From Bradyrhizobium sp. ISRA430 (GTDB taxonomy: Bacteria > Pseudomonadota > Alphaproteobacteria > Rhizobiales > Xanthobacteraceae), in contig NZ_CP094516.1 of assembly GCF_029909975.1 (NCBI RefSeq), positions 6,798,501 to 6,862,500 on the forward strand: a stretch of DNA of 64,000 nucleotides. The letters run 5' to 3'. The position numbers and the translations under genes are program-made. The notes under the pieces were generated by a model. That model worked only from the letters and a program-made list of their open reading frames with translations, was not told where the DNA came from and searched no databases. Positions 27,704-58,786 of the stretch are shown piece by piece (positions within the stretch are counted from its first letter, which is position 1; every line of letters begins with the position of its first letter).

Positions 27704-27719
27704 TGGCACGTGACTTGCC
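27704..27719 (+). promoter_or_regulatory. Sigma54 promoter of iscA-nifUS
   Basis: TGGCAC-GTGAC-TTGCC, all invariant bases present, 35 bases before the iscA start. Confidence 0.88.
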
Positions 27720-38679: not shown

Positions 38680-39411
38680 TCAGAACTTGTAAGTGACGCC
38701 GCCGCTGACGAGCCATGGGTCGATGTTGGCGCGCCCGGTGACGGCAATCGCGTTGTTTACGGTCGCGGAGTACTCCGGCCGCAGCCATAGCTTCTTCACG
38801 TCAAAGTTGAGGCCCCAGTTACGATCAAGCATGTAATCGAAGCCGAATTGGACCGCCGCGCCGAATTGGTTGCTGATGCGCAAATCCGTCACGGCAAGAC
38901 CGGCGAGCGACGTGTTGGCTGCCGATTGGTTGAAGAATGCGGTGTAGTTGATGCCCGCGCCGATATAGGGCTTGAGCGCGCCGAAATCGGTGAAGTGATA
39001 TTGCAGGGTCAGTGTTGGCGGCAACAGCCAGGCTTGGCCGATATCGAGGCCAGTGAGCGCGCCATTGCCGCTGATGTGATGGCTGGTCACGCCTAGAATG
39101 AGTTCGGCGGCAACGTTTTTTGTGAAGAAATAGGTGATATCGAGCTCGGGTATGGCTTGATCGCTGATCGAAAGCCCAGAACTTGGTGAGGACAGCGAGG
39201 GCGCCCCGACGACGCTGACCGAGCTGCCTGCGGTATCCGGCAAAACGCCAAGCACGCGCAGGCGGATCATCCATGGATTGAAGGGTTCGATCGGGGGCGC
39301 TTTATAGTAGATCGGCGCCCGACCCAGATCCGCAGCCTGTACCGGGATGCTGGCCAACGAAGTCGCTAGCGCGAGGAGCGATGCCCTCGTCAGAACTGTC
39401 TTTGTTCTCAT
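38680..39411 (-). CDS. ompW: OmpW-family outer membrane protein
   Basis: 243 residues: signal peptide (MRTKTVLTRASLLALATS to about residue 27, cleavage near VQA), then an eight-stranded beta-barrel of OmpW type (YFFTKNVAAELILGVTSHHI, then LKPYIGAGINYTAFF), ending in VTYKF with a terminal Phe as barrel proteins do. OmpW forms a narrow hydrophobic channel. The ATG at 39411 has GGAG six bases upstream. A FixK/FNR box lies 74 bases upstream, so it is likely induced under low oxygen. Confidence 0.92.
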   Translation of the reverse strand: MRTKTVLTRASLLALATSLASIPVQAADLGRAPIYYKAPPIEPFNPWMIRLRVLGVLPDTAGSSVSVVGAPSLSSPSSGLSISDQAIPELDITYFFTKNVAAELILGVTSHHISGNGALTGLDIGQAWLLPPTLTLQYHFTDFGALKPYIGAGINYTAFFNQSAANTSLAGLAVTDLRISNQFGAAVQFGFDYMLDRNWGLNFDVKKLWLRPEYSATVNNAIAVTGRANIDPWLVSGGVTYKF

Positions 39412-39872
39412 CGAATTCTCCATTCCAAAGTCCGCGCGAAGAGCCGCGCGAGATCTCTGTCACACACGGGGAATGGCGGAGGATTTGATACCGATCAAAA
39501 TGGGAGCGGTCATAGCGCAATTATGTCGCTAAGTTGCATAAGGATCACGGCCGCGAAGCGTGGTGATCTGTTCTGATCGTTATTCAATTTGAGAGAGCCG
39601 AGTCTCTTCAAGAAACCGCCTCTCGGCTTGGTGCTCTGATCCAATCCAGGCCGCGGACGTCATGCGCGATAAGGCGGCAACTGTCGCGGCCTCTCACAAG
39701 GTCGAGAAGCGCGGCATTCGAGCGCAATATAGGCGATGCCCATTACGGAGCCGCCACTCGCGCGGGCCGTCTCAGCGAAGGTCCCGTCGTCTATTGCCCG
39801 TGAAGGAAGCCGGAAGTGGGAAACGTCATCTTTGCCTCGTTTGATGGGCTGGGGGTGCGCTCCGCCGTTTCC
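39412..39872. other. Region upstream of ompW
   Basis: Holds the ompW promoter and a FixK-type box; otherwise no gene is supported. Confidence 0.5.
39485..39498 (-). promoter_or_regulatory. FixK/FNR-type box upstream of ompW
   Basis: TTGAT-ACCG-ATCAA, a perfect FixK dyad, centred about 81 bases before the ompW start codon, consistent with a class II activator position. Confidence 0.75.
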
Positions 39873-40286
39873 TCACGTCTGGGGACAACGCGTGCGGTTT
39901 GCTTCGTGCAAGCATCCCTCGAGATCATCTTGCGTCTTGCGGCTAAGCAGCGACAGCACGGGCTCATGATCGAGTCCGGCACATCGTGCCCCGTCTACGT
40001 CGATCAGCGGTCGTCGTATCAGGAGCGGATCGCCCACCATCAATGCGAGTGCGCTTGCCGCGTCGATAGTATCGGGATTGACTTCGCCTGATTTGATACG
40101 GGGCGCAGCTCGGTTGAACCAGGAGTCGACGGGCATGTTGCCGAAGAACCCGCGCAATTCCTCCGCATCCCATAGCTTCTTTAGGATGTCTTGGGCGATC
40201 ACGTCGTGGCCGGCGGACTTTAGCGCTTGAATCTGACGCGCGTTAGTGGCGCAGCCGGGCTTCTGATAAAAGATGATTGTCGCCAC
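39873..40286 (-). CDS. Nitrogenase-associated ArsC-like protein
   Basis: 137 residues of the ArsC/Spx fold, subgroup called nitrogenase-associated protein. The N-terminus ATIIFYQKPGCATNARQ has the single redox cysteine, and RRPLID matches the R-P-L/I loop of ArsC. Function in nitrogen fixation is not established. It starts with GTG, seven bases after a 52-residue gene, in an operon divergent from nifH. Confidence 0.85.
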   Translation of the reverse strand: MATIIFYQKPGCATNARQIQALKSAGHDVIAQDILKKLWDAEELRGFFGNMPVDSWFNRAAPRIKSGEVNPDTIDAASALALMVGDPLLIRRPLIDVDGARCAGLDHEPVLSLLSRKTQDDLEGCLHEANRTRCPQT

Positions 40287-40293
40287 GATATAC

Positions 40294-40452
40294 CTATGTA
40301 GGCGCGCTGAGCTGAACGATTGGCACGGCGCTGCTGCTTTCGGGAGCCCATTCGAATTTCTTCCCGATCATCTCCAATGTCAAAGCACCAAGCGCCGTAC
40401 CGTATTTGCAACACTCGCCGCTGGGCCGCCAGGTTTCGAGCCCGACCGACAT
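40294..40452 (-). CDS. 52-residue nif-regulated small protein
   Basis: MSVGLETWRPSGECCKYG start, 52 residues, one CC pair, no membrane segment. Support: GAGGAGAG five bases before the ATG at 40452, a sigma54-type promoter on the same strand 39 bases upstream (40491-40506), two NifA sites beyond it, and the ArsC-like gene seven bases downstream. I recognise no family. A longer open frame reaches 40677, but the upstream part covers the promoter and NifA sites. Confidence 0.65.
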   Translation of the reverse strand: MSVGLETWRPSGECCKYGTALGALTLEMIGKKFEWAPESSSAVPIVQLSAPT

Positions 40453-40490
40453 ATTCACTCTCCTCAAATCGCCCGGCTTGCAAGAAGAGC

Positions 40491-40506
40491 AGCAAGTTAC
40501 GTTCCA
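40491..40506 (-). promoter_or_regulatory. Sigma54-type promoter, divergent from nifH
   Basis: Minus strand TGGAAC-GTAAC-TTGCT; one mismatch in the -24 box. Correct spacing to a start codon with a good Shine-Dalgarno. Confidence 0.6.
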
Positions 40507-40568
40507 CACCTGAACGCATCGGAACAGGTCCCGCCAAACCGGCTTTTCGCGTTGATGGTTGTGGTCGT

Positions 40569-40584
40569 TGTTCGATTTCTGACA
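40569..40584. promoter_or_regulatory. NifA upstream activator sequence 1 (nifH and divergent operon)
   Basis: Exact TGT-TCGATTTCTG-ACA. About 98 bases from the nifH -24 box and 63 bases from the divergent -24 box. Confidence 0.8.
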
Positions 40585-40595
40585 GCCGCAGATCC

Positions 40596-40611
40596 TGTCA
40601 GATCCAAAACA
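40596..40611. promoter_or_regulatory. NifA upstream activator sequence 2 (nifH and divergent operon)
   Basis: Exact TGT-CAGATCCAAA-ACA, 27 bases from site 1 and 70 bases from the nifH -24 box. Its first half is part of an inverted repeat CTGACAG/CTGTCAG with the end of site 1. Confidence 0.85.
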
Positions 40612-40681
40612 GCCGGGATCACTCAGCGGCTGGTTGGTTTTATGAAACGTAATCAGAAGCTTAAGGAGCGCGGTCAAGCGT

Positions 40682-40697
40682 TGGCACGGCGGTTGCT
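40682..40697 (+). promoter_or_regulatory. Sigma54 promoter of nifH
   Basis: TGGCAC-GGCGG-TTGCT, perfect consensus. The leader to the ATG is about 150 bases. Confidence 0.95.
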
Positions 40698-40718: not shown

Positions 40719-41744
<1,026 letters not shown>

Positions 41745-49513: not shown

Positions 49514-50068
49514 TCAAGCAACCTTCAAGGTTGCGCCGCCGATTTCGCGGTTGCAGGGACAGAGCTCGTCGGTTTGCAGCGCGTCCAGAACGCGGAGCGT
49601 GTCCTTAGGACTGCGCCCGACACTGAGATTGGTCGCATAGACGTGCTGGATCGTATTTTGGGGGTCAACAATAAAGGTGTAACGATAGGCAACCCCTTCG
49701 GGTGAACGCACGCCAAGACCGTCGACGAGCGTTCCCTTTGTGTCGGCAAACTGCCAGATTGGAAGTTTGTGCAGGTCGACATGTGAGCGCCGCCAAGCGA
49801 GCTTGCAGAACTCATTGTCAGTCGAACCACCCAGTACAACCGCATCGCGGTCGGCGAATTCATTGGAAAGCCGGGCAAACTCAGCGATCTCTGTCGGGCA
49901 GACGAAGGTAAAATCCTTGGGATAGAAGAAGATGATCTTCCATTTTCCTGGAAAGCTCGCTTCGCTCAGCGTCTCGAATGCACTCTGTCCTCCTTCTTCC
50001 TGCGCTTGAAAACCGGGCTTCACGCCTGTGATTTCGAACGGCGGCAACTGACTTCCAATCCCGAGCAT
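49514..50068 (-). CDS. ahpC: Peroxiredoxin AhpC
   Basis: A 184-residue 2-Cys peroxiredoxin: peroxidatic cysteine in FTFVCPTEIAEF and resolving cysteine in DELCPCNRE. GAGG seven bases before the ATG at 50068 sets the start. A perfect sigma54 promoter lies 48 bases upstream, so it is expected to be switched on with nitrogenase and to protect it from peroxide. Confidence 0.96.
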   Translation of the reverse strand: MLGIGSQLPPFEITGVKPGFQAQEEGGQSAFETLSEASFPGKWKIIFFYPKDFTFVCPTEIAEFARLSNEFADRDAVVLGGSTDNEFCKLAWRRSHVDLHKLPIWQFADTKGTLVDGLGVRSPEGVAYRYTFIVDPQNTIQHVYATNLSVGRSPKDTLRVLDALQTDELCPCNREIGGATLKVA

Positions 50069-50116
50069 GCTTGTCCTCACAAATTTGCTTTCTGTAGATG
50101 GTGGCTTCACTGTTGA

Positions 50117-50132
50117 AGCAAGCTATGTGCCA
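50117..50132 (-). promoter_or_regulatory. Sigma54 promoter of ahpCD
   Basis: Minus strand TGGCAC-ATAGC-TTGCT, perfect consensus. The nearest exact NifA motif (TGT-CGGCCTGCCG-ACA) is at 50360-50375, about 230 bases upstream. Confidence 0.9.
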
Positions 50133-57546: not shown

Positions 57547-58617
57547 CTATTTGTCTAAGGAGGGCTTTGGGGTTGCAGTGGTGCGCGTGGGCAGTATCGG
57601 GTAATCGATCTTTGGCAGCTGCCCGGTGAGCGAATTCAGAAAGGCGACAATTTCGTCAGCTTCTTCATCGCTGAGCTTTGCGCCAAGCTGAACCTCACTC
57701 ATCACGCCAACCGCTTGCTTAAGACTCCAAACCTGACCAGAATGGAAATAGGGCGGGCGCAATGCGACGTTGCGCAGCGGCGCCGAGCGGAAAACATACT
57801 CGTCGCCGAGATCCTTGGTGACGGCAAAACGACCCTTGTCCTCCCTCGGAAGCAGGCTTTCGGCTGGCTTTTCAATCATGCCGAACGGGAAGTAATCCTG
57901 TCCACCGACGTTGATTCCGTTGTGGCAAGAGGAGCATCCCTTTTCGATGAATAGCTTTAGCCCGGCTTTCTGCTGATCGCTGAGAGCATATTCATCGCCA
58001 TCGAGGTACTGATCGAAGGGGGCGGCGGGAGTAATCAAGGTCGCCTCGAAAGCCTCGAGGGCCTTGGCGAAATTTTCAAACGTAACGGGCGCCGCATCGT
58101 TGGGAAAAGCCTTACGGAACATAACCACATAATCGGTCATTGAATTCAATGTTCTGAGCACGCGATCGGGCGTCGCATTCATTTCGACGCTGGCCTGGAC
58201 AGGGCCTGCGGCCTGCGCCTTAAGATCCGCCGCCCGCCCATCCCAGAACTGCGCTACGTTGAAGACCGCGTTATAGACTGTTGGCGCACGACGTGACCCC
58301 AGCTGCCAGCGATGACCAATCGACGTCGGGCCGGCATCTACCCCGCCCGTCCCAAGGTTATGACACGTGTTGCAGCTAATAACCCCGCTCGCCGATAGCC
58401 TCGGATCGAAAAACAAGGATTTGCCAAGTGTGACCTTTTCATGGGTGATAGGATTGTCCTTCACCGCTGGAACGACTGAGGGAATCGGCTTGAAAATCCG
58501 CTTGGCGGCGCGCATCAAATCCTCATTGGCGCCTGCTGCTGGCGAAACCAGAATCGCTGTGGCCACAACACTTAACCTGCCGGCCATGGAAAGCTCGCGT
58601 ACCGCTAATTTCCTCAT
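57547..58617 (-). CDS. Dihaem cytochrome c peroxidase
   Basis: 356 residues with an N-terminal signal peptide (hydrophobic LSVVATAILVSPAAGA, about 15-30) and two haem c motifs, CNTCHN (about 82) and CSSCHN (about 232), as in bacterial CcpA/MauG-type peroxidases. Periplasmic reduction of hydrogen peroxide using cytochrome c. Start at 58617; the ATG at 58584 is an alternative. A perfect sigma54 promoter 154 bases upstream suggests expression with nitrogenase. Confidence 0.93.
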   Translation of the reverse strand: MRKLAVRELSMAGRLSVVATAILVSPAAGANEDLMRAAKRIFKPIPSVVPAVKDNPITHEKVTLGKSLFFDPRLSASGVISCNTCHNLGTGGVDAGPTSIGHRWQLGSRRAPTVYNAVFNVAQFWDGRAADLKAQAAGPVQASVEMNATPDRVLRTLNSMTDYVVMFRKAFPNDAAPVTFENFAKALEAFEATLITPAAPFDQYLDGDEYALSDQQKAGLKLFIEKGCSSCHNGINVGGQDYFPFGMIEKPAESLLPREDKGRFAVTKDLGDEYVFRSAPLRNVALRPPYFHSGQVWSLKQAVGVMSEVQLGAKLSDEEADEIVAFLNSLTGQLPKIDYPILPTRTTATPKPSLDK

Positions 58618-58770: not shown

Positions 58771-58786
58771 AGCAACCGGCGTGCCA
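58771..58786 (-). promoter_or_regulatory. Sigma54 promoter of the cytochrome c peroxidase gene
   Basis: Minus strand TGGCAC-GCCGG-TTGCT, perfect consensus. No exact NifA motif within 400 bases upstream. Confidence 0.85.

Follow-up and report, generated by a model that had tools for sequence, protein, structure and literature searches.

A probable receiver-gene relic in the divergent NifA/sigma54 control region of nifH in Bradyrhizobium

The known nifH promoter of Bradyrhizobium associates TGT-N10-ACA motifs, located approximately 100-130 bp upstream, with a perfect -24/-12 element, and NifA sites are expected some 80-150 bp upstream of a promoter. This arrangement is also found in the DNA analysed here (hereafter the window, 64,000 nucleotides of an 8.56-Mb Bradyrhizobium genome), with the difference that its sites are also suitably placed to activate a second, divergent promoter of the sigma54 type. 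The closest described counterpart is that of strain USDA110, where bll1766 is an OmpW protein and blr1769 is NifH (PMC6515984), and where tag order places bll1767 between bll1766 and nifH; both bll genes adjoin nifH by tag order and an OmpW gene is present, as in the window. In a comparison of nifA mutant with wild-type nodules, PMC4926349 gives a log2 value of -6.0 (lower in the mutant) for bll1767, which it calls only hypothetical, and the passages of PMC3538637 devoted to bll1766 describe a NifA-regulated promoter upstream of this gene, as well as a mutant with a normal nodule phenotype.

All the elements from which the initial annotation of this region was built (two exact TGT-N10-ACA sites, a perfect nifH promoter, a minus-strand sigma54-type promoter, a small frame led by GAGGAGAG, and an ArsC-like nitrogenase-associated gene beyond it) were recovered (Table 1). 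Measured upstream from the expected nifH start, the centres of the two UAS are calculated to be at about 104 and 131 bp; from the expected minus-strand start the distances are about 96 and 123 bp, both within the range expected for NifA. TGT-N10-ACA motifs are abundant in the window (14 observed versus 6.49 expected, a number reached in 0 of 100 shuffles). Its further description as the strongest such region of the window is only loosely justified: two exact UAS (16360, 16410) and a one-mismatch promoter (16496) are also found in the nifD region, and perfect -24/-12 matches also occur at 27704 and 58772.

Table 1. Features of the nifH-divergent region (positions in the window)
Feature	Position	Strand	Remarks
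nifH	40863..41744	+	TIGR01287, 459.8 bits
nifH sigma54 -24/-12 element TGGCACGGCGGTTGC	40682..40696	+	0 mismatches
NifA UAS (TGT-N10-ACA), nearer nifH	40596..40611	strandless	exact match
NifA UAS (TGT-N10-ACA), nearer minus-strand promoter	40569..40584	strandless	exact match
Divergent sigma54-type promoter TGGAACGTAACTTGC	40492..40506	-	GG-N10-GC core; 1 mismatch, GG and GC intact
Ribosome-binding-type sequence GAGGAGAG	40458..40465	-	precedes the 52-codon frame
52-codon frame	40294..40452	-	ATG 40452-40450; stop TAG 40296-40294
ArsC-like nitrogenase-associated gene	39873..40286	-	TIGR01616, 196.5 bits (cut-off 109)
OmpW-family gene	38680..39423	-	PF03922, 8.1e-46

Very probably, this is a NifA/sigma54 control region shared by two divergent promoters, whose minus-strand mRNA has the ArsC-like protein as its working product, and whose 52-codon frame is the relic of a decayed receiver gene. 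NifA, at the two shared TGT-N10-ACA sites, would activate the sigma54 polymerase at both divergent promoters, one making nifH and the other a minus-strand mRNA from which the ArsC-like nitrogenase-associated protein, and possibly OmpW too, would be produced. The first frame on this mRNA would formerly have encoded a 144-aa receiver devoid of phosphoacceptor; in the symbiotic lineage, the receiver gene would have decayed, and an internal deletion would have left an accidental frame of 52 codons.

What identifies this frame as a relic? In genomes where the gap between nifH and the ArsC-like gene is longer (~800-880 bp), several loci harbor a receiver, either intact or in decay, which separates the same promoter from the ArsC-like gene, and intact relatives carry a 144-aa single-domain receiver at the exact position of the 52-codon frame. 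Alignment of the DNA with these relatives reveals a common start, stop and position, the receiver core being absent from the window, which retains about the first 7 and the last 35 codons of the gene (MSVGLET at the start versus MQIGVET in relatives; 159 bases in total versus 435). The last 35 residues score 32 against open receivers, a value that none of 200,000 shuffles reaches (mean -27, sd 9), and an hhalign comparison between frame and receiver alignment returned a P of 2.5e-4, but a probability of only 42.9. Judged from these alignments, the frame is very probably a relic of the 144-aa receiver, its two ends joined by an internal deletion, and its proposed role as a functional NifA-regulon member finds no support. 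Receiver frameshifts are already carried by the long-gap loci L119 and L125, so that the gene may have been decaying before the deletion occurred. Elsewhere in the window's genome no further receiver copy is present, the best match reaching 30% identity.

The loss of coding constraint was followed in a set of 31 distinct loci (36 loci), window included, in which the gap between nifH and the ArsC-like gene is shortened to 517-587 bp; this set leaves out G027, G052 and G057 (gap likewise ~574 bp). L179, devoid of a nifH start, was dropped from the analysis. Could the 52-residue frame be a genuine small protein of the NifA regulon, evolved from the receiver or replacing it? It has a good ribosome-binding sequence and a NifA-type promoter, the protein database contains six proteins of 52-74 aa with 85-100% identity to it (the 100% one being the window's own), and, when read from the aligned ATG, the frame is kept to the same stop in 9 of the 31 distinct loci (12 of the 36 loci). 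It is lost, however, in the other 22 distinct loci (15 stop after 16-32 codons, 6 overrun the ArsC-like start and 1 is in another frame), among them the nearest relative fetched (L109/G132, ArsC-like protein 93% identical), which stops after 23 codons, so that the conservation among relatives by which the initial annotation proposed to judge the frame is largely absent. Neither is a clear synonymous excess seen: dN/dS of the frame ranges from 0.43 to 1.88 in 16 pairs, most of them without third-position excess, and the 0.43 of the window and L109 rests on only about 10 changes. Values for the ArsC-like gene extend from 0.13 to 0.71 in 21 pairs, with the third position highest in 19, and the fairly high values reached by some of these pairs speak against the explanation favoured here. 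Intact free-living-type receivers (18 distinct) show a median dN/dS of 0.10 (153 pairs), third positions accounting for 7217 of the 10242 changes, and six still-open receivers at other loci range from 0.20 to 1.00 (15 pairs). Neither Pfam nor NCBIfam matched the 52-aa frame at any E value up to 1, on which basis a known small nif protein was also rejected, and the frame, with 52 of the 144 codons in length, does not contain a complete receiver domain. Taken together, a functional small protein is highly improbable, and the relic would presumably yield no useful product. Selection on the frame may nevertheless act in a subclade, given the 9 loci that keep it and the close proteins of 52-74 aa in other strains. 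Matches to the 52-aa frame (E 0.01) were obtained in 27 of 265 genomes of the genus, several of them partial, with stops, or away from nifH, and purine-rich sequences resembling GAGGAGAG lie upstream of many intact receiver starts in relatives. A tempting gene call is thereby corrected: promoter and ribosome site are good, yet the frame behind them is a probable relic.

As the frame is not conserved and its dN/dS is high, the present target of the minus-strand promoter is most likely the ArsC-like gene, for which the relic would form a leader. This gene is an ordinary member of the TIGR01616 family, far above the cut-off, with no difference seen from it. By tag order, bll1767 of USDA110 would be its counterpart, and by analogy the minus-strand transcript, which presumably exists in the window's strain and would extend into the ArsC-like gene, would depend on NifA. 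The OmpW-family gene is a possible distal target; at locus L187, no ArsC-like match separates the same promoter from the frame behind it, which is termed OmpW-like because it resembles the OmpW of the window. Alternatively, the relic could be a translated leader that serves solely for translational coupling with the ArsC-like start, as its stop TAG lies only 7 nt before the GTG of this gene, and the same stop is found in the 9 distinct loci that keep the frame. The 15 distinct loci with early termination, however, stop far upstream, and the 6 that overrun the ArsC-like start do so without a stop, which renders such coupling unlikely.

Is the minus-strand promoter instead vestigial and silent, its conservation mirroring nothing but linkage to nifH? 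Across the 31 distinct loci, mean pairwise identity is 0.965 for the nifH -24/-12 element, 0.787 for the UAS nearer nifH, 0.885 for the farther one (40569-40584, whose TGT and ACA are unvarying), and 0.905 for the minus-strand element, in which GG and TGC are identical in all loci and which ranks 3rd among 374 15-mers from the nifH element to the frame end. The leader behind it has an identity of 0.405, and the 52-codon frame 0.684. Two exact UAS are present in 20 of the 31, with an offset of 29 bp in 19 and of 27 bp in the window. The A in place of C at the fourth base of TGGCAC might be taken as a sign of decay, yet A is the genus consensus at this position; moreover, GG and TGC are invariant whereas bases immediately behind the element fall to 0.12 identity, and bll1767 is strongly NifA-dependent in USDA110 nodules (PMC4926349). 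A silent promoter is accordingly very unlikely, and the shared NifA control region recognized in the initial annotation is supported both by the conservation of its sites and by the published behaviour of bll1767.

Conservation of the divergent sigma54-type promoter extends through the genus and into other genera. When sites located 300-420 bases from nifH were tallied, NGGAACG-N4-TTGC, one mismatch being allowed, was recovered from 82 of the 84 distinct loci whose ArsC-like match reaches E 1e-5 (61 of the sites being exact), against 6 of 2020 base-shuffled 120-bp stretches. Weak ArsC-like matches in L170, L186 and L189 were not counted (a looser limit gives 84 of 87), and L184, whose stretch ends short of any ArsC-like gene, stands outside this tally. 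The two loci missing the site are L154 and L183. L154 (G045) retains nifH with its promoter, as well as one exact UAS, but only a fragment of the ArsC-like gene, and the spacing of its divergent promoter has ceased to conform to -24/-12. Among the 29 distinct loci without an ArsC-like match (E 1e-5), 19 have no site and 10 keep one with at most one mismatch (L170, L186, L187, L212, and six whose site ends in ATGC); an all-or-none link between promoter and ArsC-like gene is thus too strong.

The intact relatives of the relic match PF00072 (1.1e-14) and are CheY-type chains by sequence. Like the pseudo-receivers or aspartate-less receivers described elsewhere (PMC12632262, PMC4395418), they match PF00072 and lack the phosphoacceptor Asp, but they are stand-alone proteins linked to nifH, beginning with an invariant MQIGV and carrying a near-invariant LQFMLHDE. 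No nif-linked pseudo-receiver was seen in the available part of PMC12632262, and a search of titles and abstract openings, with subscription papers and supplements outside its scope, yielded no name, function or description for a receiver beside nifH. The free-living form is matched by 1571 proteins (E 1e-10) and the Methylococcus member by 1274 (E 1e-15). Among the best 120 of each (240 proteins), the position of CheY Asp57 is occupied by Gly in 238, the two exceptions having Glu and Ser respectively; every one of the 240 begins with MQIGV, and the Lys109 position is Lys in 234. The missing Asp and the invariant N-terminus argue for a phosphorylation-independent partner protein, and this N-terminus suggests a fixed partner surface. 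Absence of the phosphoacceptor is not universal: outside the 240 proteins, L238 has Ser at this position, and L239-L242, from one more distant genus of the order, have Asp. These four nif-linked receivers lack the first acidic-pocket residue and may be read as an older or partly different form.

Sampling 198 genomes of the family gave 23 with a receiver match, spread over 9 of 47 genera, and 297 genomes of the order (Hyphomicrobiales) gave 11. These searches gave 26 loci (one of which, L232, belongs to the same genus), with nifH beside the receiver in 24, while contig ends truncate the other two; of the 24, 18 have the divergent site with no more than two mismatches, and L237-L242 lack it. The receiver thus occurs in several families of the order, and also in the gammaproteobacterial Methylococcus, so that a receiver without phosphoacceptor seems to be a conserved neighbour of nifH in both alpha- and gammaproteobacteria. 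In Methylococcus sp. EFPC2, its gene is divergent from nifHDK, with two TGT-N10-ACA motifs 29 bp apart and a one-mismatch divergent -24/-12 element. A plasmid origin was considered and rejected, the intact receiver being found in 1 of 72,556 plasmid records, that of Methylococcus, inside a nif cluster. On this plasmid (L243, 6001-10732), the gene run opposite nifHDK is headed by the Asp-less receiver, followed by a group II truncated hemoglobin, a hypothetical, a Rieske-type, a second hypothetical and an ArsC/Spx-type protein, a nitroreductase and a GlpE-type rhodanese, and looks like a nif accessory operon.

To what extent does receiver decay follow symbiosis? A strong NodA match (E below 1e-80) was recorded in 36 of the 36 shortened-gap genomes, window included, and in 6 of 32 genomes with an uninterrupted receiver of at least 76% identity (G020, G048, G069, G096, G114, G246), where NodA either lies on a different contig or is separated by 388 kb (G246) and 4.3 Mb (G069); weak NodA matches (4.7e-4 to 9.8e-7), most exceeding the Pfam cut-off, occur in eleven more and were not counted. 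Tables of receiver state and NodA were compared by hand. Complete receiver loss in nodule formers is refuted by ten genomes in which the receiver has diverged without being interrupted (46-74% identity: G010, G037, G053, G074, G079, G123, G133, G162, G176, G208), 9 of which, all but G079, have a strong NodA. Receiver decay is therefore associated with symbiotic nif clusters, an association rather than 36 independent losses in view of shared ancestry, and differing lesions suggest more than one loss event; free-living relatives have retained the protein beside nifH, and it is lost from many nodule formers. G069 and G096 each combine an intact copy in one nif cluster with a relic in the other, and Bradyrhizobium sp. 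DOA9 (P0019) has an intact receiver on a 7.1-Mb contig; the DOA9 chromosome measures 7.1 Mb (PMC4339197), and its chromosomal NifA has been reported as essential for free-living fixation (PMC6066989). Tentatively, the intact receiver might be a NifA-co-expressed, phosphorylation-independent adaptor for nitrogenase or its regulation, needed outside plants and dispensable in nodules, and its decay in symbiotic nif clusters, promoter and ArsC-like gene staying in place, might mark the passage from self-controlled to host-buffered fixation. Strains with both an intact and a decayed receiver make its role in free-living versus nodule fixation directly testable.

Other sigma54-type sites were observed near further frames. 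In an ArsC-less Bradyrhizobium lineage (L200, L205), a frame that by eye looks like an AhpC-type peroxiredoxin is oriented divergently to nifH and follows a separate sigma54-like site near 469-496. The window itself contains an AhpC/TSA frame (49514-50110, minus strand) with a one-mismatch sigma54 site immediately upstream (50118-50132, minus strand), and a frame for a di-haem cytochrome c peroxidase (CCP_MauG; 57547-58617, minus strand), a possible further RpoN target, is preceded at a distance of 155 bp by one of the perfect -24/-12 elements (58772-58786, minus strand).
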